A stretch of DNA of 64,000 nucleotides, taken from NCBI RefSeq assembly GCF_001677435.1, contig NZ_CP016268.1, positions 857,001-921,000 of the forward strand. The letters are read 5' to 3'. Source of the stretch: Woeseia oceani. GTDB taxonomy: Bacteria; Pseudomonadota; Gammaproteobacteria; Steroidobacterales; Woeseiaceae. The notes under the pieces were generated by a model. It did no database searches. It was not told where the DNA came from and worked only from the letters and a program-made list of their open reading frames with translations. The translations under genes and the position numbers were made by a program. Positions 18,147 through 55,956 of this stretch are shown here, one piece after another; position 1 is the stretch's first letter; the number at the start of each line of letters is the position of its first letter.

Positions 18147-18191
18147 GTTCATTCATACAAAATGATCAAGAACCGATTCAGGAGTGCCAAA

Positions 18192-19776: not shown

Positions 19777-19845
19777 TAGCTGAAAATAAATGCCGCTTCG
19801 ATTGTGAAAGCCGCGCAAATTTGTCCAGACCCAAGGATTATCTAC

Positions 19846-21471: not shown

Positions 21472-22362
21472 ATGGCAAGACATCATATTCTGATCAGGTC
21501 ATTGGCCGTAATGCTGGTCACCTTGCAAGGGAGTTGTATCTCTGATGGAGGCAGTCGGAGCGTTGACCTCGACGTTACTCAGGAACAAAAGGCTGCTGAC
21601 GTCGTGAGACAGAAAAGCATTGAAATTTTACGGGACGCGCTTGATTCCGATGGGTTCTGGATATCCATGCATGCGGCAGAAGCGTTGATACTGGCGGGCC
21701 AGCAGGATCGGGTAAGGGCCAGCCTAGAGCCTCGCTTGCTGTCAGAGACCGACGACCGCAAGCGATGCGGATTGGCACGAGAGCTAATTCGAGCGGGAGA
21801 CAATTCCGCGATGTCCGTTCTGGAAGGTGTTCTTCGAAAGAAAGACACCTATGCCCATGTTCATGCGATGGAAAGCCTCTATAAGGTCGGGCAAATCAGC
21901 CCCGGCGATGCGTACCAGCAAGCGACACAACAAGATCTCAATCATGGGTTGAGAATTTGGGCGTCAGCTACTTTGGCCCGGCGTGGCGATGAAGGCGCAT
22001 TGGCAATAATAAGCGCCTATCTCGATCACCAGGACCCAATGGCCCGGTCTCTGGCGGGCTACGTATTGGGTCAGCTGGGCGATCGTTCAGCGATCGACAA
22101 AATACGACGTAATCACCTGAACGCGGAAGAGCCCATTCAGCGTTTCTTCAATGTTGCTGCTCTGGTTTACCTTGATGACTCAGCGCTACATGCTGAGCTG
22201 CAAGACTACCTGCTGCATGCCGACGCCGGAATCCGTGCGCTCGCTGCCAATTTGCTGGCGGAAACGCGTTTGGATTCTTATGACGCGGTTCTTCACTCTA
22301 ACCTTGAAGATTCTGATCCGGATGTTCGGGTGCGTTCAGCCGACGCGATCCTGCGATTCTAG
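21472..22362 (+). CDS. Envelope protein with HEAT-like repeats
   Basis: 296 residues. An N-terminal hydrophobic segment (SLAVMLVTLQGSC) looks like a signal peptide with an imperfect lipobox. The remainder is a chain of about seven helix-pair repeats (for example LEGVLRKKDTYAHVHAMESLYKVG, AIISAYLDHQDPMARSLAGYVLGQLGD, YLLHADAGIRALAANLLAE), the HEAT-repeat pattern for protein-protein contacts. It is 78 bp downstream of copy 2 and probably in the same operon, so it may scaffold the periplasmic enzymes. No catalytic motif is seen. Function unknown. Confidence 0.65.
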   Translation: MARHHILIRSLAVMLVTLQGSCISDGGSRSVDLDVTQEQKAADVVRQKSIEILRDALDSDGFWISMHAAEALILAGQQDRVRASLEPRLLSETDDRKRCGLARELIRAGDNSAMSVLEGVLRKKDTYAHVHAMESLYKVGQISPGDAYQQATQQDLNHGLRIWASATLARRGDEGALAIISAYLDHQDPMARSLAGYVLGQLGDRSAIDKIRRNHLNAEEPIQRFFNVAALVYLDDSALHAELQDYLLHADAGIRALAANLLAETRLDSYDAVLHSNLEDSDPDVRVRSADAILRF

Positions 22363-22484: not shown

Positions 22485-22690
22485 TAACGTCGAGAACACC
22501 TAAATTTCTCTGCTGTTGCGGCAACCAATCCATGGGCGAACCCGAATGAATCAGAGGCTCCGTCGTTTCTCGAAGACATCTCTTGCCCCAGCGTCGCAAC
22601 GGCAACCGGCCGGTCCTGGAGCAGCGTAGCGAACCCGTTCGGGACTACCAGACGTGGTCGGATACGTACGTATTCCAGGCCGGAATACGT
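22485..22690 (+). pseudogene. Remnant of a fifth ceramidase-like gene start, with decayed operator
   Basis: ATG 22546 begins MNQRLRRFSKTSLA and, after a one-base frame change, continues with TATGRSWSSVANPFG. This tracks the Tat leader of copy 2 (MNQNRRRFLQSSVA…AGLSWSNIANALG). Homology fades after about 22690. TAACGTCG at 22485-22492 lies 54 bp before the ATG, the spacing at which the intact copies carry TAACGTTA, so it looks like a decayed operator. The surrounding gap 22363-22842 (480 bp) otherwise contains no intact gene. Confidence 0.6.
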
Positions 22691-30362: not shown

Positions 30363-30400
30363 CGGCTGACCACTGCGATTGGATGCCTTTGGAGCTGCGC

Positions 30401-31948
30401 ATGAGCCACACGGATCGACGTACATTCCTGCAAAAATCACTTGCCGCCGGCGCAGTAGCTGCTTCGGGTGCCTCTTTCAGCAGCTTTGCCAACGCAATGA
30501 GGCCGGGCAAACGACTTGAGGTAGCGGCTGTTCGCTTTGGCACAATGGCAGATGTTGGCGAAAACGGTGGCAGTCATCTTGGGCATGTGATCAGCAAGGT
30601 TGCCGGCCCCTTGAAAACGACGGTTATGTTGCTGAAGGACGGCGAGCTCCGTACCTGTATCGTGTGCTTTGATGGTGCCTTGCCGCTCAAGTACACGAAA
30701 AAGATGATTTCGCGCGAGCTTGGCATGGCGCTGGAAAACATCGTGATATTTACATCGCATAATCACAGTGGCGCGCCAACCGGCGGAACCACGGTGCCGG
30801 GCGAAAACTTCTACAATGTGGACCGTAACGATCCAAAATACGATGCACCGCTGACCCCATTCGGTCAGAGAGTGTTTGCGGAGCTAACCGCTTCGGTCCG
30901 GCGTTTGCCGGGCATGCTCGAGCCAGTCAGTGTGTGGCATGCCGAAGGAACGGAAGGTCGGATTACCTACAATCGCAAGGGACGTCGCGCTGATGGCTCG
31001 ACCTATTTCATGCGTGAAGAAGATCGTGTGCTCATTGATAAAGATTTCAATGGCGATATTGACCGCCAGGCGCCTGTCGTAGTTTTCAGAAATGATCGGG
31101 ACAAGGCCGTCGCCGCGCTTGTGCAATTTACCGGGCACCCGGTTACCAGTTACAAGCCGGAAGACCCCGTTGTCTTCGGTGAATGGCCGCAAATTGCGAC
31201 GGATATCGTCGCGCGCGAACTGGCCAATGGTGGCGAGCCGGTTCCGGTAGGGTTCTTGCAGGGTTGTTGCGGTGACGTCAACTCCAAGGAGATGTTCACC
31301 GGCGGTGTTGAACGTGCAACTGAATTTGGCGAGATGCTTGGCGAGAGCTATGTAAAGGCCCTGCAAGACCTTCGGCTGTCCGAACGCGACGGCATGAGCT
31401 TCACGGTTGAATCAGTGCCGGTTCCCTGCGGCCCGTTACCGAGCCTCGGCATTCTCAAAGACGAAATCGCGGAAATGCACGACTTTATCAAGCGTGCCGA
31501 TGCCGGCAGGGAGGACACGCTTGATTGTGTGGGGCTGAATTTTCCACGCGCGTTATCGCCGAAATACCGCGGCGCTCTGGTGAAATCTATCCTCCCGTGG
31601 AGTGAATGGGCGCTGGACCTGCGCAAGACCGGGCGCGCCGACACCGTGCTGAAATCGGTGGACCTGCCGACCCATGTATTCCGTATTGGTGACGTTGGGA
31701 TTATTGGCATGCAGTGCGAGCCCTTCCAGGGCATCGGTCGCAGGATGCGGGAGCTTTCGCCTACGGCCCTGACCATTCCTTGTGGATACGCGAACGGGTC
31801 GCAAGGTTATTTTACGGATTCGGCAAATACCGGCGACCGCGAGTACATGAGCTCCTTCTACCGTTACACTTCGTTTCGGCCGCCCTTCAAGGCACCGGCC
31901 GGTGACGTTGTGGCCGATCGCGCCGTACAAATATTAAGACAGTCCTGA
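30401..31948 (+). CDS. Tat-exported neutral-ceramidase-superfamily protein, copy 3
   Basis: 515 residues from ATG 30401; an upstream ATG at 30383 would spoil the leader. Tat signal TDRRTFLQKSLAAGAVAASG. Metal-site motifs as in the other copies: SHNHSGAPTGG, FTGHPVTSY, CEPFQGIGRRMREL, and the Tyr region GYANGSQGYFTD. The nucleophile-region motif is QGCCGDV (no Ser). It is clearly diverged from copies 1 and 2 and closest to copy 4 by the DRRxFLQKSLAAG leader. It heads an operon with an acyltransferase-fold protein and GlcDEF, which suggests that what this enzyme releases feeds an alpha-hydroxyacid oxidase. Confidence 0.8.
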   Translation: MSHTDRRTFLQKSLAAGAVAASGASFSSFANAMRPGKRLEVAAVRFGTMADVGENGGSHLGHVISKVAGPLKTTVMLLKDGELRTCIVCFDGALPLKYTKKMISRELGMALENIVIFTSHNHSGAPTGGTTVPGENFYNVDRNDPKYDAPLTPFGQRVFAELTASVRRLPGMLEPVSVWHAEGTEGRITYNRKGRRADGSTYFMREEDRVLIDKDFNGDIDRQAPVVVFRNDRDKAVAALVQFTGHPVTSYKPEDPVVFGEWPQIATDIVARELANGGEPVPVGFLQGCCGDVNSKEMFTGGVERATEFGEMLGESYVKALQDLRLSERDGMSFTVESVPVPCGPLPSLGILKDEIAEMHDFIKRADAGREDTLDCVGLNFPRALSPKYRGALVKSILPWSEWALDLRKTGRADTVLKSVDLPTHVFRIGDVGIIGMQCEPFQGIGRRMRELSPTALTIPCGYANGSQGYFTDSANTGDREYMSSFYRYTSFRPPFKAPAGDVVADRAVQILRQS

Positions 31949-32769: not shown

Positions 32770-32803
32770 CGAACGTTGAATGTCGCGTTGCGACCGGGTG
32801 GAC

Positions 32804-34264
32804 ATGAACGCAAGTGCCAAGACCGATGATGGTGGCAAGCTAGCGCTAGCGGCGCGATTTCGCGAGCTCCTGCGGGCCGATCAAATCATCGTGGATGCCG
32901 AAAGCAAGCGGCCTTACGAATGCGATGCGTTGCCGGTGTACAAGGCGATGCCACTGCTGGTGCTGGTGCCGGAAACGACGCGGCAGGTCCAGGCCATAGT
33001 TCGTTTGTGCTATGAGCTCAAGGTGCCAGTGGTGGCACGCGGAGCAGGAACCGGGCTCAGTGCAGGTGCATTGCCTGACAGCAACGGGGTACTGGTTTCT
33101 CTGGCGCGTCTGTCCAGGATAATTGAAGTCGATCCGGACGCCCGGATTGCGCGTGTGCAGCCCGGTGTTCGCAATCTGGCTATCAGCGAAGCGGCCGAAG
33201 AGTTCGGCCTCTACTATGCGCCGGATCCGTCATCGCAGATCGCCTGCAGCATCGGCGGCAACATTGCGGAAAACTCAGGCGGGGTTCATTGCCTGAAGTA
33301 TGGTCTGACGGTGCACAACGTGCTGGGCATGGAAATAGTCACAGCGGAAGGTGAGATCCTGCAGGTGGGCGGGCGCGGCCTCGATACCGCGGGTTACGAC
33401 CTCAATGCGTTGTTTATCGGCTCGGAAGGGTTGCTGGGCATTGTCACGGAAGTGTGGGTCAAGCTGCTGCCGAAACCCGAACATGCCCGGGTAGTCATGG
33501 CGGGATTCGATAGCGTCCTGAATGCGGGCGATGCCGTGAGCGCAGTCATTGCGGCCGGAATCATACCGGCCGGTCTCGAAATGATGGACGGCTTCGCGAT
33601 CCAGGCGGCGGAAGATTTCGTCAATGCGGGCTATCCGCGGGATGCCCGGGCACTTTTATTGTGCGAGGTGGACGGCAACGAAGACGAAGTTCTCGAGCAT
33701 GTCGAGCGCATCGAGAGTCTTTTCCGCGAGTTCGGCGCAACGTCCTGCCGCGTGTCACGGGACGACGCAGAAAGAGCGCTGTTCTGGAAAGGCAGGAAGG
33801 CCGCCTTTCCGGCCGCCGGGCGCATTTCGCCCGACTACTACTGCATGGACGGCACGATCCCGCGCCGAAAGATCGGCGCCGTGCTGGAAGCAATCCAGCA
33901 ATTGTCGGAGCAGTACGGTCTGCGGATCTCCAACGTTTTTCACGCGGGTGACGGTAATCTTCATCCGCTCATTCTTTTTGATGCCAGTGTTCCGGGTGAG
34001 CTGCACGCTGCGGAAGAGCTCGGAGGCAAGATCCTCGAACTGTGCGTGCAAGTGGGTGGCTCGATTACCGGCGAACATGGGGTTGGAGTCGAGAAGCTCC
34101 GCTACATGCTGGCCCAGTTCAATGATGCCGAGCTTGCACAGTTCCATGCCATCAAGGACGCACTCGACCCGGCCGGCATACTGAACCCGGGCAAAGGTAT
34201 TCCGACCTTGCGCCAGTGCCAGGAATACCGCTCTATCGATGCGTCGGGCGGGGCGAAACGCTAA
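32804..34264 (+). CDS. glcD: Glycolate/D-lactate oxidase FAD subunit GlcD
   Basis: 486 residues from ATG 32804 (upstream ATG 32780 less likely); E. coli GlcD is about 499. FAD_binding_4 motif ARGAGTGLSAGALP, the IACSIGGNIAENSGGVH segment and the C-terminal cap with HAGDGNLHPL and GSITGEHGVG (the His/Glu site of the FAD-linked oxidase family). It oxidises glycolate to glyoxylate, or D-lactate to pyruvate, passing electrons through GlcE/GlcF to quinone at the inner membrane. The stop overlaps the start of glcE by one base (TAATG), indicating translational coupling. The substrate cannot be told apart from sequence alone. Confidence 0.9.
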   Translation: MNASAKTDDGGKLALAARFRELLRADQIIVDAESKRPYECDALPVYKAMPLLVLVPETTRQVQAIVRLCYELKVPVVARGAGTGLSAGALPDSNGVLVSLARLSRIIEVDPDARIARVQPGVRNLAISEAAEEFGLYYAPDPSSQIACSIGGNIAENSGGVHCLKYGLTVHNVLGMEIVTAEGEILQVGGRGLDTAGYDLNALFIGSEGLLGIVTEVWVKLLPKPEHARVVMAGFDSVLNAGDAVSAVIAAGIIPAGLEMMDGFAIQAAEDFVNAGYPRDARALLLCEVDGNEDEVLEHVERIESLFREFGATSCRVSRDDAERALFWKGRKAAFPAAGRISPDYYCMDGTIPRRKIGAVLEAIQQLSEQYGLRISNVFHAGDGNLHPLILFDASVPGELHAAEELGGKILELCVQVGGSITGEHGVGVEKLRYMLAQFNDAELAQFHAIKDALDPAGILNPGKGIPTLRQCQEYRSIDASGGAKR

Positions 34265-35322
34265 TGGGCGACATCGCTGCCGAACTTGAGGCTACCGTGC
34301 GTGCTGCCGCCGCCAGCGGCACAAAACTGTCGATTGTTGCGGGTGGCAGTAAGTCATTTCTCGGCCGGGATGTTGCGGGTGAGTGCCTGGACGTGTCAGG
34401 TCACAGCGGCATACTCGACTACCAGCCGGCCGAGCTCGTACTGACTGCGCGCGCCGGAACGACGTTGACCGAGATCGCGCAGTGCCTGGAGGATTGTGGC
34501 CAGATGCTCCCGTTCGAGCCTCCGGTATTCGATGGCAAAGCGACTATCGGCGGAACTCTCGCCTGCGATGCGGCAGGTCCGGCAAGGCCGTGGCGGGGTT
34601 CGGTTCGCGATGCGACGCTCGGCGTTACATTGATTAACGGCAGGGGCGAGCGGCTCCGCTTTGGTGGCCAGGTCCTGAAGAATGTAGCGGGCTACGACGT
34701 CTCGCGGCTGCAGGCCGGGGCGATGGGGACGTTGGGTGTCATGACGGAGGTAACTGTGCGCTTGTTGCCCATACCCGCTGCGACCGCGACCCTGGTCCGC
34801 GAAATGGACGCTGCCGCTGCTATCAGGCGAATGAACGAAATGACGCGCACGCCGTTGCCGATTTCCGCCGCGGCGTGGCTGGACGGCAAGCTGTACATGC
34901 GGCTCGAAGGTGCGGAACGCGCTGTAGCGGGTGCTCGTGGCAAGATTGAGGCTGATTTTGATTCCGGCGACGAGTCGATATGGCGTCACATTCGGGAACA
35001 GTCACTGGAGTTCTTCAAGGGCAGTACTCCGCTTTGGCGTTTCTCCGTGGCATCCAACAGCGGGCACAGAAATGCAGACGAGCCCTGGCTGCTCGATTGG
35101 GGTGGCGCACAACGTTGGCTGCGCGGGGAGTTTGACGCGCAGTACCTCGAATCGCTGGCATGTGATCTGGGAGGACAGGTTTCCCTGTACCGTCACGGCG
35201 ATCGCTCCGGGGAGGTTTTCCACCCGCAGGTGCCGGCAATGCGTAACGTGCAGATGCGCTTGAAGAAAAGCTTTGACCCACACGGCATATTCAATGTGGG
35301 CCGTATGTACGACGGCATATAG
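34264..35322 (+). CDS. glcE: Glycolate oxidase FAD-binding subunit GlcE
   Basis: 352 residues; the ATG shares its A with the glcD stop. FAD-binding half only, as expected for GlcE: VAGGSKSFLGRD, TIGGTLACDAAGPARPWRG and VLKNVAGYDVSRLQAGAMGTLGV, the GlcE signature. E. coli GlcE is about 350 residues. It forms the membrane-associated complex with GlcD and GlcF. The C-terminal HPQVPAMRNVQMRLKKSFDP followed by GIFNVGRM is complete. Confidence 0.9.
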   Translation: MGDIAAELEATVRAAAASGTKLSIVAGGSKSFLGRDVAGECLDVSGHSGILDYQPAELVLTARAGTTLTEIAQCLEDCGQMLPFEPPVFDGKATIGGTLACDAAGPARPWRGSVRDATLGVTLINGRGERLRFGGQVLKNVAGYDVSRLQAGAMGTLGVMTEVTVRLLPIPAATATLVREMDAAAAIRRMNEMTRTPLPISAAAWLDGKLYMRLEGAERAVAGARGKIEADFDSGDESIWRHIREQSLEFFKGSTPLWRFSVASNSGHRNADEPWLLDWGGAQRWLRGEFDAQYLESLACDLGGQVSLYRHGDRSGEVFHPQVPAMRNVQMRLKKSFDPHGIFNVGRMYDGI

Positions 35323-35333
35323 CAGGGACAGCG

Positions 35334-36557
35334 GTGCAAACTTCCATTCACGAATCATTCCGCGAGTTGGCCGAAGCTGCCGAAGCCGAGGCGATTTTAA
35401 GCTCATGCGTGCATTGCGGTTTCTGCAATGCAACCTGCCCGACGTACCAGCAGTTACACGATGAGCGGGACGGGCCCAGGGGCCGTATCTACCTGATCAA
35501 ACAGTTTCTTGAGAGCGGAGAGGCGACCGAGAATACGCGGGTCCACCTCGATCGTTGTCTCACGTGCCGGAGCTGCGAGACCACGTGTCCATCCGGTGTG
35601 CAGTACGCACGGTTGGCCGATATCGGCCGGGGCATTCTTGAGCGCAAGTTGCCGAGGCCTGTAACAGCGCGCGGAATTCGCTGGTTGCTGAGAAACGTGG
35701 TGGCATTTCGGCGACGTTTTGCCATGGCGTTTACAGCGGCCCGAGTCATGAAGCCGTTGTTGCCGTCATTCTTGCGGCGCAAGATTCCCAGTCGAACGCC
35801 GCCCGGAGTCTGGCCCGCAGTACGGCATGATCGGGTAATGTTCACGCCCAAAGGTTGTGTGCAGTCCTCAGTCTCACCCAATACCAATGCGGCTGCTGCA
35901 CGAGTCCTCGACAAGCTTGGCGTCTCGCTCATTGATGAATCGGCATCGGGTTGTTGTGGTGCAGTGAGTTACCACCTTGGGCATCACGATGAGGGCAAAG
36001 CCTTTTTCAGGAAGAACATCGATGCCTGGTGGCCGCTGGTTGAATCCGGTGCAGAAGCGCTTGTGCTTACTGCTTCCGGTTGCGGTTCGATGGTTAAGGA
36101 ATACGGAGAGATACTGAAATCCGACCCCGAATACGCGGAGAAAGCCGCGGTCATTTCCGGGCTCGCCCGGGACCTGAGTGAGGTGGTCCTCGCAGAAGAC
36201 ATCGAGCGTTTGAACGTTGCACCCGATAGCGAGAAAGTTGCCGTCCACTGTCCATGTACCCTGCAACACGCGCAGAAGCTTCCCGATGGAGTCGACCGCA
36301 TACTGGCCAGAATGGGGTTCAATCTGGCCAGGACCCGGGACAAACACTTGTGTTGCGGATCGGCCGGGACTTATTCGATTCTGCAGCCACAACTGAGCAG
36401 GAAGTTGTTGGCGCAAAAGGTTGAGGCTCTGTCGATTGACGCACCGGACAAGATCGTAACCGCCAATGTCGGCTGCCAGCTGGATTTAGGCGCCGCTGCC
36501 AGGGTTCCGGTACGTCACTGGGTCGAGATCGTTGACGATGCGTTAGTTGATCGCTGA
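35334..36557 (+). CDS. glcF: Glycolate oxidase iron-sulfur subunit GlcF
   Basis: 407 residues, the same length as E. coli GlcF, with GTG start at 35334, 11 bp after glcE. Two [4Fe-4S] motifs: CVHCGFCNATCP (Cys25, 28, 31, 35) and CLTCRSCETTCP (Cys75, 78, 81, 85). Two CCG domains follow, with SGCCGAVSYH and LCCGSAGTYSI. It carries electrons from the GlcD flavin to the quinone pool. It is the last gene of the operon, which ends at the hairpin at 36651. Confidence 0.92.
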   Translation: MQTSIHESFRELAEAAEAEAILSSCVHCGFCNATCPTYQQLHDERDGPRGRIYLIKQFLESGEATENTRVHLDRCLTCRSCETTCPSGVQYARLADIGRGILERKLPRPVTARGIRWLLRNVVAFRRRFAMAFTAARVMKPLLPSFLRRKIPSRTPPGVWPAVRHDRVMFTPKGCVQSSVSPNTNAAAARVLDKLGVSLIDESASGCCGAVSYHLGHHDEGKAFFRKNIDAWWPLVESGAEALVLTASGCGSMVKEYGEILKSDPEYAEKAAVISGLARDLSEVVLAEDIERLNVAPDSEKVAVHCPCTLQHAQKLPDGVDRILARMGFNLARTRDKHLCCGSAGTYSILQPQLSRKLLAQKVEALSIDAPDKIVTANVGCQLDLGAAARVPVRHWVEIVDDALVDR

Positions 36558-42889: not shown

Positions 42890-45709
42890 ATGAGTTTGAT
42901 CTCGACATCTGATAGTCGCAACGCCGAGCCGGTAATCGTCCGACGAATGCTTGGGGTGTTTGCGACGGCAACTCTGGTTTTCGGATTCCCGCTGCTGGCT
43001 TTGGCTGACGATGGCGCCCCCGAATCATTAACGACTATCGGGTTTACCGAGGTCAGTGAACTGGTTTCGACCGGATCAGAAGCAGGTGCGGGAATCGTGG
43101 GCGCCTATGTCGGCGTACAGAACGGCGCACTTATTGTCGCCGGTGGAGTGAGCGGAACCAGCACCTCAGGGTCGCAGAGTTCCGGCACGCGGCAGGATTT
43201 TCACGACAGGGTCTGGGTCGCTACCCGTGCTGACGGTTCTGACGAGAACGGCGACGGCAAGATTGCGGGCGACGAGCGTCTGCTCAAATGGCACGACACG
43301 GGATTGAAGCTGCCGGGCAAGAGGGCCTATGGCGCCTACGCCGGCCATGACTTGGGTCTGATCGCGGTGGGCGGCAGCGACGGCGCTGCCGCACGGAAAG
43401 AAGCTTTTCTGATTCGCTGGGATAGCCCGTCGTCAGCCGCGCGCTTGCTCCAACTGCCGGATATGCCCAAAGCAGCCATGAACGGCGGCGCGACCGTACT
43501 CGGCAATAGTTTGTATGTTGTGGCCGGCGGCAATGCTGACGCTACGAGCCACGACTTTTTCAGATTCGATCTCAGCCGCATTCAAACGGATGCGTTCGGT
43601 GAGCCGGTTGCCGACGGCCATCTTGCGAGCATAAGCGAGCAGCGGGACGAACAGGGACGAGTTGTCAGTCCCTGGGAGCAACTGCCGTCCTTGCCATTAC
43701 CTGGCAGTCAAACGTCTGGCGACGTGTCGATGACGGTCGCCGCCCAGAATAACGGCATTGGTGACCGGTTGTTCGTAGTCATGCCAAGCTCAACTGCTGC
43801 AGGTGCAGGAGGCGGGCAGGCCGGATCAAGTCAGCAGGGTACAGTCTGGTCTTTTGACCCGGGCGCCAGCGCGTGGACCCGGAAGGCCGACATGCCACTG
43901 GATGGCAGCGGCGCCGGCGTCAACGGCTTTGTCGGTGGTGCACTTGGGCAGTCCCATATCATCGTCCTTGCTGATGCAATACCCGGAGAAAGCCGCGTGG
44001 CCCGTTCCTATAACGCAGTGACCAATACCTGGGCCGATTACGCCGAGGTGTCAACCGGACCGGATTCACAAGAGGCTGCGGGCACTGATTCGCTGGCTCC
44101 GCGGTCAGCAGCAACGTTCGTCAATTGGGACGGCGATTTGATGTTACTGGGTAACGGAGTCCGGGCCGGTGTTCCTTTTGAAGGAATCTGGCAGGTAGAC
44201 GTCAAGAGCCCGCTCTCACATTTCGGCTGGCCGAATATGACTGTGCTGGTCATCTACTTGTTATCGATGGTGCTGATCGGTGTCTATTTCGCGCGCAAGA
44301 ACAGTGACACGGATGACTATTTCCGGGGCGGCCAGAACATTCCATGGTGGGCGGCCGGTTGTTCAATCTACGCAACCATGCTGAGCTCGCTGACTTACCT
44401 CGCGCTGCCGGCACTCGTCTACCAGACAGACTGGCTCTTATATATCGGTATTCTGACCGTGTTGCTGGTGGCGCCGATCATCGTGCACCTCATCATGCCG
44501 TTTTTCCGAAACATTGATGCGACCAGTGCCTACGAGTACCTGTCCAAACGCTTCAATATGCCCGTGAGACTGTTTGCCAGTGCGCTGTTCATCTGCTTCC
44601 AGGTTGGGCGGATGGGTATCGTAATGGCACTAACCGCGCTTGCGTTGGCGGCCGTCACCCCGCTTGACGCTTGGCAGTCGGTACTGCTGATGGGCGTGCT
44701 GTCGATGCTCTACAGTGCAATGGGCGGAATTGAAGCGGTGGTCTGGACAGACACTATCCAGGTATTTGTGCTTACCCTCGGTGCGGTGCTGTGTTTCGTC
44801 TTCATCATCAGCGGTATCGATGGCGGCCTGTCGGGTTTCTTCAGTGCCGGCATTGCGGATAATAAGTTCCGGCTGCTCGATCTCGACTTCAGCGCGAGCA
44901 GTATCACGTCGCTTTCCATCTGGGTCATTGTTCTGGGCGGCATAGGCCAGAACATGTCCAGCTATTCCGCGGATCAGGCGGTGGTTCAGCGCTACATGAC
45001 CACCAAGAGCACCAAGGCGGCGGCCGAATCGATCTGGACGAACGCGATCGTTACGGTGCCGGGTGTGTTGATGTTCTTCTTCATTGGTACCGGACTGTAT
45101 GCCTACTACCAGTCCAATCCTGCGAAGCTGGACCCGAACCTGCAGATTGACCAGATTTTCCCTGCCTTTGTTGGCGCAGAACTTCCCATCGGTATTGCCG
45201 GACTGATCGTCGCCGGTATTTTCGCTGCGGCACAATCCACGGTGTCATCTGGGATGAATTCGACGGCGACGGCGTTGGTCACGGATTTCTTGCGGCCGTT
45301 CAACGTCTGTCAGGACGATAACAGCTACCTGCGGGCGGCGAGAATTCTGACCGTGGTGATGGGCGTACTCGGCACCGCCGTCGGCTTGTTGTTTATCAGT
45401 CCGGAAATTCGCTCGCTGATGGCGGAATACTTCAAAGTGATTGGCATGTTCATGGGCGCATTGGCCGGACTGTTTATTCTTGGAATTACAACACGGCGGG
45501 CGACAGGCGCTGGCGCACTCGTCGGCATAGCCTGCGGTGCCGGCATTAATATCGTGGTGTGGCTGATGGAATGGGCCAACGGCTACCTGTTTGCAACCAT
45601 TGGCATCGCCTGCAGCATTGGAATCGGCTATTTGGCCAGCTTGATGTTGCCTGCTGATAATCAGGATATTGACGGATTGACTATCTACACGGTGCAACGC
45701 AATCCGTAA
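42890..45709 (+). CDS. Kelch (NanM-like mutarotase) domain fused to SSS sodium symporter
   Basis: 939 residues. A leader helix (RMLGVFATATLVFGFPLLALAD) exports the first about 430 residues, which carry kelch-type beta-propeller repeats (PGKRAYGAYAGHDLGLIAVGG, AMNGGATVLGNSLYVVAGG, WTRKADMPLDGSGAGVNGFVGG) like the cyclically permuted sialic-acid mutarotase/epimerase NanM. From about residue 445 a complete SSS symporter follows (13 helices, YFRGGQNIPWW loop, MLYSAMGGIEAVVWTD, FAAAQSTVSSGMNSTA). The propeller would present the right anomer to the transporter in the periplasm. A GGAG-like site (CCAGGGAG) precedes ATG 42890. It follows the NanA-like gene by 147 bp, probably in one operon. Confidence 0.85.
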   Translation: MSLISTSDSRNAEPVIVRRMLGVFATATLVFGFPLLALADDGAPESLTTIGFTEVSELVSTGSEAGAGIVGAYVGVQNGALIVAGGVSGTSTSGSQSSGTRQDFHDRVWVATRADGSDENGDGKIAGDERLLKWHDTGLKLPGKRAYGAYAGHDLGLIAVGGSDGAAARKEAFLIRWDSPSSAARLLQLPDMPKAAMNGGATVLGNSLYVVAGGNADATSHDFFRFDLSRIQTDAFGEPVADGHLASISEQRDEQGRVVSPWEQLPSLPLPGSQTSGDVSMTVAAQNNGIGDRLFVVMPSSTAAGAGGGQAGSSQQGTVWSFDPGASAWTRKADMPLDGSGAGVNGFVGGALGQSHIIVLADAIPGESRVARSYNAVTNTWADYAEVSTGPDSQEAAGTDSLAPRSAATFVNWDGDLMLLGNGVRAGVPFEGIWQVDVKSPLSHFGWPNMTVLVIYLLSMVLIGVYFARKNSDTDDYFRGGQNIPWWAAGCSIYATMLSSLTYLALPALVYQTDWLLYIGILTVLLVAPIIVHLIMPFFRNIDATSAYEYLSKRFNMPVRLFASALFICFQVGRMGIVMALTALALAAVTPLDAWQSVLLMGVLSMLYSAMGGIEAVVWTDTIQVFVLTLGAVLCFVFIISGIDGGLSGFFSAGIADNKFRLLDLDFSASSITSLSIWVIVLGGIGQNMSSYSADQAVVQRYMTTKSTKAAAESIWTNAIVTVPGVLMFFFIGTGLYAYYQSNPAKLDPNLQIDQIFPAFVGAELPIGIAGLIVAGIFAAAQSTVSSGMNSTATALVTDFLRPFNVCQDDNSYLRAARILTVVMGVLGTAVGLLFISPEIRSLMAEYFKVIGMFMGALAGLFILGITTRRATGAGALVGIACGAGINIVVWLMEWANGYLFATIGIACSIGIGYLASLMLPADNQDIDGLTIYTVQRNP

Positions 45710-48144: not shown

Positions 48145-48192
48145 TTGACACCGTAAACCCTTTAACGTAAAAGGCAATATCGTTTAACGTAA
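48145..48192 (+). promoter_or_regulatory. Promoter with two operator variants TAACGTAA
   Basis: TTGACA (48145-48150) is followed by CTTTAACGTAAAAGG (core 48163-48170) and GTTTAACGTAACATG (core 48185-48192), 22 bp apart centre to centre, two helical turns. Each has one intact TTAACG half and one altered half. The pair lies 49-78 bp before the ATG at 48241. Confidence 0.6.
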
Positions 48193-48240: not shown

Positions 48241-51114
48241 ATGAATAAACGAATACGTGCGTTGCTTGTGGCGGTTGCGGCCACGTCGGCAATTATGAGT
48301 ACAACTGGGCAAGCGGCGTTGGCGCAAGAGGCAGGCGGCAACAGCGCGGAACGCCGCAACGATGCTGCATCCAAAAGATCAAAGGAGGTCATTGAAGAGG
48401 TCGTTACAGTAGGTTCGCGCCGCGCAGAAAGAACAGTTGCCGAATCAATGGTCCCGATCGATGTACTAAGTGGTGCCGAGCTAGAGAGTCAGGGTGCCCC
48501 CGATATGGACGATATGCTGAGAACGACGATTCCGTCCTACAACGTACGCCGTTGGGGAACCGGAGACGAGGCATCAATCGTACGTCCGGCGCAGATGCGC
48601 GGGCTACCGGCCGATAACAACCTTGTTCTCGTCAATGGCAAACGGCGACACAGATCGGGCGTTATTACGCAGGATGGCGTTCATGGTCCGGACCTCGGCT
48701 CCATCCCCGCGATGGCTATCAAGCAGGTGGAAGTATTGCGTGACGGCGCCTCCGCCCAATACGGCTCCGATGCGGTAGCTGGTGTCTTGAACTTCATGTT
48801 GAAAGACGCGAGCGAGGGCGTGACCCTGGAAGCGCGGACTGGTCAATTCTTTAAAGGCGATGGCGAGCTCTACCAGTTGAGCGCCAATGCCGGGTTTCCG
48901 CTCGGGCAAAACGGCTTTGCGAATGTGACAGCACAGTGGCGGGAGATGGCTCCGACTGATACGGCTACACAACGAACAGCGGCTGCGACAATTCGCCGTT
49001 CCGGCAACGCTGCGCAGCGTGATGCCATTCCGGAGATTGCCCAGGAATGGGGGCAGCAGGAAGTCAACGACGATTGGATAGTCTTCCTGAATTCAGAGCT
49101 GGAAATCACCGATTCGCAGAGTTTTTACTTTTTCGGGAATGTCGGAAGTCGCAGTACCGAGACCGGCTTTAATTGGCGCAACCCGAATAGCCAGGGTTCA
49201 GTGTTCACCCACAACTTCAATGGCCAGACTTACCGTGCCGTCATGGACAGCAACATCATTCCCAACCTCGGTGGCCAGGTTTCCAATTGTCCCGCGATGA
49301 TCGTTCCGGGTACTGGCCTGGACGGCGTTGACCTGGACCCAACGGCGGTTGCCAATGATTTCGCGGCAATGAATTCACTGCCTGACAATTGTCTGGTCTA
49401 CAACGAGTTCATGCCGGGAGGTTTTACTCCAAAGTTCAGCGGAAAGGTGCGAGATGCTTCGGGTGTGATGGGAATTCAAGGCGTCTCCAAACGTTTTCAC
49501 GACTTGACCTATGACATCAGTCTGGGTGTTGGCTGGAATGATGCCGATTTTCATATTCGGGAAACTGTCAATCCATCACTGGGGCAGACCGCTATTACTG
49601 CCGGAGTACTGCAGCGGGCTTTCGATGTCGGTTCTTACTCACAGTTTGAGAAGAGCTTCAACGCAAATTTCACCAAAGCGTTACCGATGGAAGCATTCGT
49701 TTCCGATCTCAATCTGGCCTTCGGTGTGGAGTGGCGAGAAGAAGAATGGACTGCATCAATTGGCGAAGTTAATTCATGGATTAATGGACCGTTCACCACA
49801 CAGGCCGGCCCGTCATCGAACCCCAACTGCTACGGCGATGGCACGACGTGCCAGCTTGATGCTACCGGTGCGCCAATTCCATTGACCAATATGGGGATCG
49901 GAAGCAACGGTTTGCCAGGGTACTCGCCACAGCAAGCGGGTACTTGGGCTCGAAGTAACTGGGCATTCTATACTGACGTCGAGGGCGATGTTACGGAGAA
50001 GTTTACGGTTGGCGCCGCACTGCGATACGAAAACTTCAACACCTTCGGCAGTACAGTAAATGGAAAACTCAGTAGTCGATTGGAATTGACTGAAAATGTC
50101 GCTCTTCGCGCTTCTTTGAGCACAGGCTTTCGCGCACCAACTCCGGCGCAGAGCAATCAGACAAAACTGCGTACGACGCTCATAGACAACGAACTTCTGC
50201 AATCCGGCCGGATACCGTCGACCAATCCAATCGCAGTTTCTCTTGGCGGTAAGGTACTGCAGGAAGAGAAGGCAACGAGTTTCACGTTAGGTGGCGTATT
50301 CGATGTGACAGAAACCTTGAGCGTCACAGTGGATTACTTCAATATTGAGTTAACAGATCGTCTTGCTACTACTGGTAACCTGTCAATCATCGCTCTCGGC
50401 CCGTTAACGGATGGGAGTTGCCCGATCGCAGCCGCCGACCCTGCGGCCAATCTCGCACAATGTTTGCAAGAAAGCGGTGTCCCCGGGGCCGCAGAAAGTT
50501 CTGCGGTAAGCTTTTTCACCAACAACTTTGATACGACGACTCAGGGCATCGACATTGTTGCGACCTGGTTGACGGATTTTGGTCGGGCTGGTACAGGTAA
50601 CTTCACTGCCGCCTGGAACTGGACGGACACGCAAGTCGATCGCATTGAAGATGACATCAGTCGAAACACTGTTGTCAACCTTGAGAATGCCTTACCGGAT
50701 CAACGTGGAATTTTCACCTACAACCATTCAGTTGGCGATTTTGGGCTGATGCTTCGTGCCAGTTATTACGGTGAACGAAAGAATGGTGGTAACAACGGGG
50801 ATCCGTTGTTTACGGGTGCCGGAGACAATCCGCAATACGCACTGGATTGCACAGGAACGCCTAACGCAATAGGTGGTACCGTTTACACGGATTACTGTTT
50901 TGGCTCTGACTGGGTGTTTGATGTCGAAGCATCTTACTATGCTGGCGAGAATGTGACGCTGGTTCTTGGTGCTCAGAACTTCACCGATAATTTCGGTCCG
51001 CTGGACAAAGGTAATGAGAGTGGACTGAATAACATTGGTCTCACTTACAGTAACCAAACACCATTTGGTTTCGATGGCGGGTTTGCTTATTTTCGTATGA
51101 AGGTTGATTTCTGA
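48241..51114 (+). CDS. TonB-dependent outer-membrane receptor, regulon member
   Basis: 957 residues. Signal peptide ending AALAQE, TonB-box-like EEVVTVGSRRAE, plug with MRGLPADNNLVLVNGKRRH and IKQVEVLRDGASAQYGSDAVAGVLNF, barrel ending FAYFRMKVDF with terminal Phe. This plug type (…NGKRRHRSGVI…) is the subfamily often seen with Tat or periplasmic degradative enzymes in marine Proteobacteria. Two variant operators lie upstream. A strong hairpin follows it, so it is probably monocistronic, with the Tat-exported aminotransferase gene next. Confidence 0.92.
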   Translation: MNKRIRALLVAVAATSAIMSTTGQAALAQEAGGNSAERRNDAASKRSKEVIEEVVTVGSRRAERTVAESMVPIDVLSGAELESQGAPDMDDMLRTTIPSYNVRRWGTGDEASIVRPAQMRGLPADNNLVLVNGKRRHRSGVITQDGVHGPDLGSIPAMAIKQVEVLRDGASAQYGSDAVAGVLNFMLKDASEGVTLEARTGQFFKGDGELYQLSANAGFPLGQNGFANVTAQWREMAPTDTATQRTAAATIRRSGNAAQRDAIPEIAQEWGQQEVNDDWIVFLNSELEITDSQSFYFFGNVGSRSTETGFNWRNPNSQGSVFTHNFNGQTYRAVMDSNIIPNLGGQVSNCPAMIVPGTGLDGVDLDPTAVANDFAAMNSLPDNCLVYNEFMPGGFTPKFSGKVRDASGVMGIQGVSKRFHDLTYDISLGVGWNDADFHIRETVNPSLGQTAITAGVLQRAFDVGSYSQFEKSFNANFTKALPMEAFVSDLNLAFGVEWREEEWTASIGEVNSWINGPFTTQAGPSSNPNCYGDGTTCQLDATGAPIPLTNMGIGSNGLPGYSPQQAGTWARSNWAFYTDVEGDVTEKFTVGAALRYENFNTFGSTVNGKLSSRLELTENVALRASLSTGFRAPTPAQSNQTKLRTTLIDNELLQSGRIPSTNPIAVSLGGKVLQEEKATSFTLGGVFDVTETLSVTVDYFNIELTDRLATTGNLSIIALGPLTDGSCPIAAADPAANLAQCLQESGVPGAAESSAVSFFTNNFDTTTQGIDIVATWLTDFGRAGTGNFTAAWNWTDTQVDRIEDDISRNTVVNLENALPDQRGIFTYNHSVGDFGLMLRASYYGERKNGGNNGDPLFTGAGDNPQYALDCTGTPNAIGGTVYTDYCFGSDWVFDVEASYYAGENVTLVLGAQNFTDNFGPLDKGNESGLNNIGLTYSNQTPFGFDGGFAYFRMKVDF

Positions 51115-51141
51115 TTCTGGAGCAAACTGTCAGGTGATTGT

Positions 51142-51169
51142 GAGGCCACCCGTACATCGAGGTGGCCTC
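51142..51169 (+). terminator. Terminator hairpin after the TonB receptor gene
   Basis: GAGGCCACC (51142-51150) and GGTGGCCTC (51161-51169) make a perfect 9-bp stem with a 10-nt loop, followed by the U-rich CGTTATTACTTT. Confidence 0.8.
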
Positions 51170-51375
51170 CGTTATTACTTTGCTCTCCGACCGTGCTGGT
51201 TCAGCCTGTTGAAGTGACTTATGTTGCCGAATGACGTGGGTAGCCTGAACCGATATCGAGGTATACAGGTACAACTCCCGTTGCAGGCAGAGTAGGCTGA
51301 CAGGTGACATTTTCTGATAGCGATTACCCGGAGCTGCCGTCTTGATGCAGCACAAAATGGATGGGAGAGATCATA

Positions 51376-52650
51376 GTGGAACGGCGTGAATTTCTCGGGT
51401 TAATGTCTGCTTCTTACGTGGCCTTGCACTCGCAGGCAGCCGGGGCGGTTGCGTCGGCTGTTGCTGGTGTCTCGCAGGACCCTGAATCGGCCAGTACGGA
51501 TGAAGAGTTCTGGCTGCAGATTCGACAGGCATTCAGTGTCGATGGTAATCAGATCAACCTAAATAGTGGCAGCGTTAGCCCGGCACCCCAAGTGGTTCAG
51601 AAGGCGATGCAAGACTATCTGACCGTTATGAACATGAGCCCTTCTCTTTATGTGGAAAAGCTGCTCTTGCCGCAGCGTGAAGGGGTCAGGCGTCGGTTGG
51701 CAAGCGCATTCGGTTGTGATCCCGAAGAGCTGGCAATAACCCGAAATACCACGGAGTCTCTGGAGAACGTGATTCTTGGTATTGATCTGAAGCCTGGCGA
51801 CGAGGTTCTCACGACCAACCAAGACTACATCAGCATGCTTTGGAGTTGGCGGCAGCGCGAGAAAAGGGATGGAATTGTTCTGAAGACGATTTCATTTCCG
51901 GTCCCGCCACCAAGTCCGGATGATCTGGTTAAGAGGTTTGAAGAGGCTATAACGGATCGTACCCGGGTCATTATGTTGAGCCATGTGACATACACAACAG
52001 GTCAGATATTCCCTGTCCGGGAAATCTGCAGAATGGCACGCGATCGTGGGATCCAGACGATCGTGGATGGCGCACACAGCTTCGCGCACTTTCCATTCCA
52101 GCAGGCGGATCTGGACTGCGACTACTATGGCACTAGTTTGCACAAGTGGCTGACGGCGCCAATCGGCACCGGTTTTCTTTACGTCCGGAAGGAAAGGATA
52201 CCGGATGTGTGGCCCCTCATGCCGTCCAGTGAAAGCAACGCAGCTAATATTCGAAAGTTTGAGGCGATCGGTACGCATCCGGTTGCTGCGAAGAACGCAA
52301 TCTCATCCGCACTTACCTTTCATCAGCGTATCGGCCCGGAACGCAAAGCGGCTCGCCTCAACTATTTGCGCGAACGTTGGTCTCGTCGCGTTGAGTCGAT
52401 TCGCGGTGTGCGTATCCTGAATAGTAATGATCCGGGTCAGGCATGCGGAATAGGCGCTATGACAATCGAGGGGATTGAAGGGCCTGCGCTCAGTGAGCAT
52501 CTGTTGCGGACTTCACGCATTCACGTGAGGGCACGGGTACTGCCCGGTGAGTATTCGGCAATCCGCGTGGCACCAAACGTATTTACCAGTGTCGACGAAA
52601 TAGATGTGTTTAGTCAGGCAATCGAAAAAATCGCCCACAAAGGCCTTTGA
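51376..52650 (+). CDS. Class V PLP aminotransferase with Tat-like leader (isopenicillin-N-epimerase-like)
   Basis: 424 residues from GTG 51376, chosen over ATG 51361 because GGGAGAG lies 6 nt before the GTG and the product then starts MERREFLGLMSASYV, a Tat twin-arginine motif. The mature part is a class V aminotransferase: NTTESLENVILG, VDGAHSFAHFP (Asp231) and the PLP lysine in TSLHKWLTAPIG (Lys257). Relatives are isopenicillin-N epimerases and cysteine-desulfurase-like enzymes. A PLP enzyme must take its cofactor in the cytoplasm, which agrees with folded export by Tat. It would process an amino compound in the periplasm, for example by epimerisation or elimination. The nearest upstream structure is a terminator, so it needs its own promoter, not clearly visible. 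Confidence 0.78.
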   Translation: MERREFLGLMSASYVALHSQAAGAVASAVAGVSQDPESASTDEEFWLQIRQAFSVDGNQINLNSGSVSPAPQVVQKAMQDYLTVMNMSPSLYVEKLLLPQREGVRRRLASAFGCDPEELAITRNTTESLENVILGIDLKPGDEVLTTNQDYISMLWSWRQREKRDGIVLKTISFPVPPPSPDDLVKRFEEAITDRTRVIMLSHVTYTTGQIFPVREICRMARDRGIQTIVDGAHSFAHFPFQQADLDCDYYGTSLHKWLTAPIGTGFLYVRKERIPDVWPLMPSSESNAANIRKFEAIGTHPVAAKNAISSALTFHQRIGPERKAARLNYLRERWSRRVESIRGVRILNSNDPGQACGIGAMTIEGIEGPALSEHLLRTSRIHVRARVLPGEYSAIRVAPNVFTSVDEIDVFSQAIEKIAHKGL

Positions 52651-53051: not shown

Positions 53052-54098
53052 ATGGTAAAGAAGAAGATGAGTTCAAGAGTGAACCGGCGGGTAACTCTTC
53101 GCGACATAGCGGAGGCTACCAACGTTTCGGTAATGACCGTTTCCAATGTCGTTAACGGCAAATCTCAGTTTGTCAGCAGCGCAACTCGGCAGAAGGTCGA
53201 TGCGGCGATCAAGAAGCTGAAATACGTACCAAGTGCAACCAGCCGGAAATTACGAAGCAGCCAGGAATTCTCCATTGGCATGATTATCATGGATGAGGCG
53301 CCGGTATTTCTCGCCGATCCATTCATAGGCCAGCTTGTGGCCGGCCTGAGTAACCACCTCAGCACCAATAATTACTCATTAACTGTGCAGGGCGTGCGCC
53401 CAGAGAGCTTTCAGCGAGCGTCATTGTTTTCGGTGGCTGGCACCGACGCCTTATGCGCCATATTGTGTGGCCCGAAGGCGGAGAGGCGGAAGAATGTTGA
53501 TTTCATGCTGGGCAGGCACCAGCCTGTGGTTATCTTTCAGGACAGCCTGGACATCAAGGCCAGTGGCATCGCTATCGTCAATCAGGACGACGAGAAAGGT
53601 GGTTATGAAATAACCTCGCACGTGATCTCACGAGGCGCCAAAAAGTTGCTCTTCGTCAGGCCGTTGGTGCAATGGCCTGCCATAGAGAAGCGTTTGAAGG
53701 GCGTCAAAAAGGCCATTGCTCGGAAAAAAGGGGTGACTCTGGAGATTCTTAAATGCGAAGAGTCGACATTCGAGAAGACTCAGGAAGCCCTTGCCGAATA
53801 CCTGGCCGTCACCAAGGTACCGGATGCTATTCTTGGTGGCACTGATGCCATGGCCATTGCTGCGATGCGCTATTGTCAGGATCAGGGCTACAAGGTCCCT
53901 GAGGACATCATGGTGACCGGCTTCAATGGCTTTTCTGCGAGTAGTTATTCGACCCCATCATTGACTACAATCGTTTCGCCAGCCTACGAGATGGGGCAGT
54001 TGGCCGGCCAACTGATCCTTGACCGGCTGCGGACCGGTCGTTTTTCAGCGCGCAAAACGCTTCTCCCAGTATCTTTCAAGCAGGGCGGATCCGCGTAG
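53052..54098 (+). CDS. LacI-family transcriptional repressor
   Basis: 348 residues. N-terminal HTH (VTLRDIAEATNVSVMTVSNVVNG, about residues 14-36), hinge (VPSATSRKLRSS, about 59-70) and a PBP1-like sugar-binding domain (IGMIIMDEAPVFLADPFIGQLVAGL, AILCGPKAERR, GGYEITSHVISRGAKKLLFVR, ILGGTDAMAIAAMRYCQDQGYKVPEDI). It most likely binds the TAACGTTA palindromes found at twelve promoter positions around it. LacI proteins place their hinge helices at a central CpG, which this core has. Effector unknown, presumably an intermediate of the pathway. Start at 53052 or 53067. It lies upstream of ceramidase-like copy 4. Confidence 0.92.
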   Translation: MVKKKMSSRVNRRVTLRDIAEATNVSVMTVSNVVNGKSQFVSSATRQKVDAAIKKLKYVPSATSRKLRSSQEFSIGMIIMDEAPVFLADPFIGQLVAGLSNHLSTNNYSLTVQGVRPESFQRASLFSVAGTDALCAILCGPKAERRKNVDFMLGRHQPVVIFQDSLDIKASGIAIVNQDDEKGGYEITSHVISRGAKKLLFVRPLVQWPAIEKRLKGVKKAIARKKGVTLEILKCEESTFEKTQEALAEYLAVTKVPDAILGGTDAMAIAAMRYCQDQGYKVPEDIMVTGFNGFSASSYSTPSLTTIVSPAYEMGQLAGQLILDRLRTGRFSARKTLLPVSFKQGGSA

Positions 54099-54370: not shown

Positions 54371-54405
54371 CGGTTTTATTGACTGACCGCATATCTGGAG
54401 CATTC

Positions 54406-55956
54406 ATGACTGATACAGACAGACGCGCATTCCTGCAAAAGTCACTCGCCGCAGGTACCGTTGCCGCATCGGGCGTGTCCCTAAGCAGCATTGCGCATGG
54501 CATGAGCAGGCGCGGGCAACTGGAAGTTGCCGCAATTCGATTCGGCACCATGGCGGACGTGGGCGATGCTGGAGCGAGCAAGCTCGGCAATAAGATTTTG
54601 GAAGTTGCCGGTCCTCTAAAGACAACTATCATGCTCCTCCGGGAAGGAAACCACGAGGTCTGCATTGTCTGCATCGACTTGATTCTGAGTCGGTCGCTGG
54701 CCTATTTCAAGAAGATCATTTCACAAGAACTGGGAATTGCCGCTGATAACATTGTGCTGTTCGCCTCGCACAATCACAGTGATGCTCCGCCGGGCGGCTC
54801 TACCGGCCACAATGATCAGGACTACCGCGACCGGCTGGTTTCAACTAAAGAGTCACCTTTGACACCCTTCGGTGAGCGCTTGTTCAAAGAGCTCAGAGAA
54901 TCTGCGCGACGCTTACGTGGAATGTTGGAGCCGGTCAGCGTCTGGTATGCCGAAGGCAGCGAAGGACGCATAACCTACAACCGGAAAGGCCGTCGGGCGG
55001 ACGGTTCGACGTATTTCATGCGCGAGGAGGACCGGGTCCTCGTCGGTGCTGACTACAATGGTGACATTGACCGTCAGGCGCCAGTTGTGGTTTTCAAAAA
55101 CCGGCAAAACAAGCCGATTGCCGCTCTCGTGCAGTTTACCGGGCACCCGGTTACCAGCTACAAGCCGGAGGCACCCGTCGTGTATGGGGAGTGGTCGCAG
55201 GTCGCGACGGATATCGTTGGCCGGGAACTGGCAGAGGGTGGCGAGCCTATTCCCGTCGGCTTCCTGCAAGGATGCGCGGGCGATGTGAATTCGAAGGAAA
55301 TGTTCAGCGGTGGCGTCGAACGAGCGCGCTTGTTCGGCGAGATGCTGGGAGAAAGCTACCTCAAGGCGCTGAATGATCTCCAGCCTTCAGAGCGAAACAG
55401 TTTGATGTATAAGACGGAACCCGTTCCGGTGCCGTGCGGACCGTTGCCGGACATGCGCGCATTGAAACTGGAAATCGAAGAAATGAACGATTTCATTCGA
55501 CGCGCTGATGCGGGAGATGAGAATACGCTCACCTGCGTTGGATTGAACTTCCCACGGGCATTGTCACCTGAATACCGTGGAGCACTGATCAAGTCGGTTC
55601 TACCTTGGAGCGAGTGGGCTCTGGATATTCGCAAGACGGGCCGCGAAAACACGATCATGAAAGCGCTTGATCTGCCAATTTACGTCATCGGCCTGGGCGA
55701 TGTGGGCATAGTTGGCCTGCAATGTGAACCGTTCCAGGGTATCGGTCGCAGACTGCGTGAGCTTTCACCTTTGCCTATGACTATTCCCTGCGGATACGCC
55801 AATGGTTCTCACGGCTACGTGACCGACTCGGCCAATACGGGCGATCGCGAGTACATGAGTTCTTACTACCGCTACACGCGATTCAGGCCTCAGTTCGAGC
55901 GACCGGCCGGCGATGTTCTGGCGGATCGAGGCGCACAGATTCTCGCCAAGGGCTAG
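54406..55956 (+). CDS. Tat-exported neutral-ceramidase-superfamily protein, copy 4
   Basis: 516 residues from ATG 54406 (TGGAG before it). Tat leader TDRRAFLQKSLAAGTVAASG. Motifs: SHNHSDAPPGG (the Gly-Ala of the other copies is Asp-Ala here), FTGHPVTSY, QGCAGDVNSKEMF in place of the usual Ser-containing motif, CEPFQGIGRRLREL and GYANGSHGYVTD. The change next to the metal-binding histidines and a longer loop (PPGGSTGHNDQDYRDRL) may give a different substrate range. It leads an operon with a DHDPS-type aldolase and an amidohydrolase, next to the repressor gene. Confidence 0.8.
   Translation: MTDTDRRAFLQKSLAAGTVAASGVSLSSIAHGMSRRGQLEVAAIRFGTMADVGDAGASKLGNKILEVAGPLKTTIMLLREGNHEVCIVCIDLILSRSLAYFKKIISQELGIAADNIVLFASHNHSDAPPGGSTGHNDQDYRDRLVSTKESPLTPFGERLFKELRESARRLRGMLEPVSVWYAEGSEGRITYNRKGRRADGSTYFMREEDRVLVGADYNGDIDRQAPVVVFKNRQNKPIAALVQFTGHPVTSYKPEAPVVYGEWSQVATDIVGRELAEGGEPIPVGFLQGCAGDVNSKEMFSGGVERARLFGEMLGESYLKALNDLQPSERNSLMYKTEPVPVPCGPLPDMRALKLEIEEMNDFIRRADAGDENTLTCVGLNFPRALSPEYRGALIKSVLPWSEWALDIRKTGRENTIMKALDLPIYVIGLGDVGIVGLQCEPFQGIGRRLRELSPLPMTIPCGYANGSHGYVTDSANTGDREYMSSYYRYTRFRPQFERPAGDVLADRGAQILAKG

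Follow-up and report, generated by a model that had tools for sequence, protein, structure and literature searches.

We have identified in Woeseia oceani a class V PLP enzyme with a Tat-type leader, encoded in the 64,000-nucleotide stretch of DNA analysed here (the window). Its export by Tat is highly likely on the sequence evidence, and we think it probable that the enzyme is carried folded across the inner membrane and works in the periplasm as PvdN does. With rather less assurance we favour placing it in an uncharacterised family of Tat-exported class V PLP enzymes that is distinct from PvdN, has conserved residues of its own (R123, Y151, Q160, R164, H203 and T300) and has a sister clade with KR leaders.

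The gene, its start and its leader

The open reading frame is intact, and its coordinates, GTG start and translation (VERREFLGLM...) agree with those given by an earlier model reading of the letters (the sequence-only reading), which had also described a complete class V aminotransferase. PF00266 (Aminotran_5) spans residues 61-392 at model positions 2-339 of 371 (E 1.5e-43), so that the domain is that of a nearly complete class V, fold type I PLP enzyme, and the AlphaFold2 model of the protein has a mean pLDDT of 93.3. GTG 51376 is likely to be the true start, because a GGAG is well placed 8 bases ahead of it, because no match of at least 4 bases to the Shine-Dalgarno consensus lies upstream of the alternative in-frame ATG 51361, and because residue 1 of the enzyme falls, in the alignments, where M(x)RRxFL or MDKRxFL begins in relatives. 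The support that GGGAGAG had been said to lend to the GTG is thus confirmed, and we reject ATG 51361 as a start on its missing Shine-Dalgarno match and on the alignment of the relatives' starts.

Table 1. Features of the window discussed in the text
Feature	Position	Strand	Remarks
Tat-leader class V PLP enzyme gene	51376..52650	+	424 aa, GTG start; intact ORF
Shine-Dalgarno-like GGAG	51364..51367	+	inside GGGAGAG 51363-51369; counted on printed sequence
Tat-type signal peptide (putative), residues 1-31	51376..51468	+	MERR, RREFL motif, h-region FLGLMSASYVAL; C-terminal end a guess
Lys257 codon, PLP Schiff-base lysine in SLHKW	52144..52146	+	assigned by homology
TonB-dependent receptor gene	48241..51114	+	directly upstream of enzyme gene; possible co-transcription
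Two operator-like TAACGTAA sites (48163, 48185)	48163..48192	+	one mismatch to TAACGTTA; before TonB receptor gene
LacI-family regulator gene	53052..54098	+	downstream of enzyme gene
Exact TAACGTTA sites	18127, 25585, 25720, 30345, 38688, 54353, 60503		
Four paralogues with Tat-type leaders	18162-19736, 19804-21393, 30383-31948, 54379-55956		~520 residues

The twin-arginine motif noticed in ERREFLGLM is present. RREFL fits the published Tat pattern RR.[FGAVML][LITMVF] (the TatP default, taken from PMC1182353) and is followed by a moderately hydrophobic stretch, the best 12-residue mean hydropathy after the motif being 1.72; TatC is encoded in the same genome, above its cut-off (E 6.7e-65). Counting against Tat export are the lack of S or T ahead of RR and of K behind FL, and an h-region that is short and then runs into H and Q. 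The leader offers several candidate A-x-A cleavage sites within residues 22-30, and these, like the end mark that the PvdN leader bears in a table of Tat leaders (PMC6085387), make it unlikely that an uncleaved leader keeps the exported protein anchored in the inner membrane, facing the periplasm, even though no single A-x-A site is clear and the model shows two helices (residues 3-17 and 19-30) and is of low confidence over residues 12-18.

Conservation of the motif was assessed in relatives recovered by a scan of genome contigs, taken as the best 80 of 565 confirmed loci (best-segment identity 43-63%). The TatP default pattern was matched in 75 of these best 80 of 565; the exceptions are L055, L074 and L083, which are 5'-incomplete, L093, which reads RRREIL, and L066, which reads KRIDFL. 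Among the 77 with a readable N-terminus, 76 have RR and one has KR. The search covered the 30 residues before and the 22 after the position homologous to residue 1 of the enzyme; where several matches occurred, the one with the most hydrophobic follow-up was kept, and the nearest upstream start codon was taken as the start. The motif falls within the first 30 residues in 75 of the 77, a placement that is partly by construction because the relatives' starts were set from the motif. Shuffling residues 2-40 1000 times gave 4.8 such cases on average and never more than 12, and chance seems a poor explanation of the conservation of the motif. Median identity to the enzyme (n=76 aligned, from the best 80 of 565) is 57% over residues 2-8, 16% over residues 9-40 and 51% over residues 45-424: to judge by these values the body of the leader has diverged and the motif is fixed. 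An A.A pattern is found in residues 13-45 of 68 of the 77 relatives, but alanine is common there. RR leaders are, by this count, the rule among the enzyme's closest relatives.

These observations bear directly on the idea that the enzyme is cytoplasmic and its RR incidental, or that translation really starts at an internal codon such as ATG 51403 and the protein has no leader. The RR pattern alone is reported to match 15% of cytoplasmic proteins with RR in their first 30 residues (PMC1182353), and an internal ATG 51403 and GTG 51418 do exist. Set against this are the retention of the motif far above the shuffled mean in a leader whose body has diverged, the lack, by eye, of a Shine-Dalgarno-like run in the 25 bases ahead of either internal codon, and the absence of such a Tat motif from the three class V paralogues that the genome was found to encode; we regard a cytoplasmic enzyme as improbable. 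Tat export, which the sequence-only reading had proposed, is strongly supported by the conservation of the motif, the start-codon evidence and the homology to PvdN.

Relation to PvdN and to other PLP enzymes

Among PDB entries PvdN matches best by sequence (E 6.2e-33; PDB 5i90 and 5hh9) and comes first by Foldseek E-value on the AlphaFold2 model (TM 0.82, 25% identity). The two proteins have in common the class V, fold type I architecture and the HKW lysine motif, and the PvdN leader is of the RRxFLK type, whereas their identity is only ~25% and the enzyme has no known link to pyoverdine. The PvdN model NF051467 gives the enzyme 152.3 bits against a curated cut-off of 650, in an alignment that begins at residue 3 and so takes in the leader. 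A quick ML tree (103 rows, SH-aLRT support only, several long branches flagged) groups PvdN with four PvdN-like proteins in one clade (SH-aLRT 100) apart from the enzyme. Score and tree position together rule out a PvdN orthologue, and in these comparisons the enzyme is a distant homologue of PvdN, not PvdN itself. None of the 369 genomes scanned has a match above the PvdN cut-off, and for this reason four of the five rows in that clade are termed PvdN-like only; the fifth is the PvdN chain of the solved structure.

Exported enzymes of this sort have been described in pseudomonads. A review presents PvdN and PtaA as Tat-transported PLP enzymes, and states that transport of PvdN requires PLP binding in the cytoplasm, a change of the active-site lysine leaving PvdN in the membrane (PMC6206403). 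PtaA (periplasmic transaminase A of Pseudomonas fluorescens), known here by description alone, is given there as a Tat-exported PLP transaminase that occurs also in species without pyoverdine (PMC6206403). A study of Tat substrates in P. aeruginosa gives RR leaders for PvdN, credited to earlier work, and for the aminotransferase PA2531, from the study itself; PA2531 stands in a table of this paper on validated Tat substrates, and the likeness to our enzyme noted here is that of its printed leader (PMC6085387). As a PLP enzyme, PvdN is reported to decarboxylate and to react with oxygen (PMC7497351). Because of the precedents of PvdN, PtaA and PA2531, an exported PLP enzyme is of a known kind. 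The remark in the sequence-only reading that periplasmic PLP enzymes are uncommon is fair in general, but understates that the kind is known and that RR leaders are usual among the closest relatives. A keyword literature search returned no paper joining a Tat signal with a class V aminotransferase, or isopenicillin epimerase with twin-arginine.

The active site was compared across 76 aligned relatives from the best 80 of 565, with L055, L074, L083 and L090 left out. All 76 keep Lys257, Asp231, R123, Y151, Q160, R164 and T300, while His234 is kept in 74 and H203 in 72; a lysine stands at the position of Lys257 also in 6/6 proteins of the KR clade and 5/5 PvdN-like proteins. The KR clade retains R123, Y151, R164, H203 and T300 in all six members, though not Q160. 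In the PvdN-like proteins, R123, Q160, H203 and T300 differ in all five, Y151 is kept in one and R164 in four. These differences from PvdN, and the absence of the cysteine loop of SufS, suggest that the substrate site probably differs from both. Epimerase or lyase chemistry is also conceivable. Of the 42 NCBIfam families matched, the 25 listed all score below their cut-offs and include no isopenicillin N epimerase-like model.

SufS/CsdA cysteine desulfurases have the fold and the PLP lysine in common with the enzyme. A SufS-like sulfur enzyme, exported or not, is nevertheless a most improbable reading: NCBIfam SufS is the second family match and cysteine desulfurase structures come after PvdN in the fold search, but the SufS score is 128 bits against a curated cut-off of 475, and where the genome's own SufS-like protein has its catalytic-cysteine loop (HHCA) the enzyme reads RARVLPG and lacks the loop. 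On the missing loop and the low family score we reject it. We know of no exported leader among the SufS/CsdA desulfurases.

Distribution, neighbouring genes and operator-like sites

In the tree the enzyme falls in a 6-row clade (SH-aLRT 99) with five MAG proteins, four from Acidobacteriota and one from Gemmatimonadaceae. Within its own genus, family and order, 6 of 59 other genomes have a relative at E <=1e-80, 38-41% identical; these six (L005-L010), the nearest in the window's own family, all read MDKR[SDT]FL[KR], with KR instead of RR, a point that speaks against Tat export of the enzyme. The sole other genome of the same genus (89% complete) has a best match of E 4.5e-17. In even samples with at most 4 candidates scored per genome, 1 of 368 other genomes of the class reaches E 1e-60 and none of 397 other genomes of the phylum reaches E 1e-80; the six KR-clade genomes were evidently not drawn in these samples, since no match is shown there. 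This distribution and the tree placement suggest horizontal acquisition, probably from an Acidobacteriota/Gemmatimonadota-like lineage, although the tree neighbours are MAGs. By record title the family is present in ten NCBI phyla, with RR leaders in nine and KR in one Balneolota row, and it is found also in Candidatus Aminicenantes and KSB1. A natural KR leader is that of TtrB, and SufI is reported to tolerate lysine at a lower rate (PMC1182353), while a later review describes lysine in the Tat motif as poorly tolerated (PMC7317946). Tat export of the KR clade is uncertain.

The neighbouring genes scanned look transport-related and catabolic. Farther upstream than the TonB receptor gene lie genes for an SDR, a lactonase-like protein, a symporter, a DHDPS-family protein and a second TonB receptor; downstream, after the LacI regulator, come genes for a Tat-leader protein, a second DHDPS-family protein, amidohydrolases and a CBM9-like protein. 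The symporter (42890-45709) joins in one protein a sodium:solute symporter and an N-terminal part weakly like NanM/cyclically permuted mutarotases, below cut-offs. At 32780-36557 a GlcD-like gene (below cut-offs) is followed by genes for FAD-binding and iron-sulfur proteins in a glycolate-oxidase-like layout, with putative subunit names.

Little of this setting recurs around relatives. When 28 other genes of the window were sought by tblastn (E 1e-10) in loci L005-L103, many of which have short flanks and, where GC-rich, unreliable ORF assignment, 5 matched at 24-34% identity: SSS1 in 2 loci, SSS2 in 4, the fumarylacetoacetate-hydrolase gene in 4, and SDR genes in 2 and 3. Of five wider regions from the KR clade, L115 and L116 share a symporter and two more neighbours, and L117 and L119 three different ones. 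L118 has, ~4 kb from its enzyme gene, a homologue (65% identity) of the window's fumarylacetoacetate-hydrolase gene, which we do not take as a functional clue because the window's counterpart lies ~25 kb from the enzyme gene. The search for a function from neighbours, mostly not conserved among relatives, yielded nothing firm. Since relatives elsewhere are mostly not beside these genes, the neighbourhood suggests local use and not the role of the family.

A palindrome, TAACGTTA, is repeated in the island and is perhaps a LacI-family operator. Allowing at most one mismatch, the window contains 23 copies where 10.5 would be expected, and none of 100 shuffles reached 23; some of the sites are inside genes. 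The pattern TGTAACGTTA has 3 copies in the whole genome, all within the window; the backward control pattern has 8. No TAACGTTA, exact or with one mismatch, lies in 51115-51375, directly upstream of the enzyme gene, the nearest operator-like sites (one mismatch) being ~3.2 kb upstream. This interval between the receptor and enzyme genes contains no terminator-like site, and no promoter-like site was found before either gene; in both searches site counts were no higher than in shuffles. It is possible that the enzyme gene joins the regulon by read-through over the 261-base gap.

Four other Tat-type leaders occur in the window (TRRLFLQ, NRRRFLQ, DRRTFLQ and DRRAFLQ, in ORFs 18162, 19804, 30383 and 54379), and an exact TAACGTTA lies just before three of these ORFs (18162, 30383 and 54379). 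The regulon with four other Tat-exported proteins that had been proposed for the enzyme is only partly borne out: these leaders and sites are present, but the four proteins are paralogues of one family, not independent cases, and the interval directly before the enzyme gene has no site. Membership of the enzyme gene would be indirect at best. Three of the four paralogues gave nothing above cut-off against Pfam (Ceramidase_alk E 0.089 for the first), and the fourth gave no PDB sequence match at E 1; they are possibly an undescribed or very distant ceramidase-like family. Two segments in and after a HEAT-repeat gene (22191-22229 and 22595-22644) are 77-80% identical to parts of the Tat-leader paralogues and are perhaps remnants of a further copy.

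Proposed route and its meaning

The route that we envisage begins with synthesis from GTG 51376. By analogy with PvdN, the protein would then fold and bind PLP in the cytoplasm, after which Tat would carry it in folded form across the inner membrane, guided by the observed leader MERREFLGLMSASYVAL. The leader might be removed near residues 22-30, a tentative placement, and the enzyme could, more speculatively, then act in the periplasm on an amine entering via the TonB receptor encoded upstream. We put forward only tentatively, the neighbours not being conserved, that the reaction may be transamination or oxidative deamination/decarboxylation of an amine entering through the outer membrane.

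PLP enzymes are usually found in the cytoplasm, where PLP is made, and those of the periplasm must carry their cofactor along. Regeneration of PLP in the periplasm after transamination is described just as an assumption in a review of the subject (PMC6206403), and a conserved family beyond the pseudomonads offers a further system in which to test it. Its substrate would give a lead to amine chemistry of the envelope that is at present unassigned. As a case the enzyme is one of a known kind; what it adds is how broad and how conserved the family is, together with the KR sister clade. If the family is indeed a separate one, PLP chemistry in the cell envelope would be widespread and not peculiar to siderophore tailoring.
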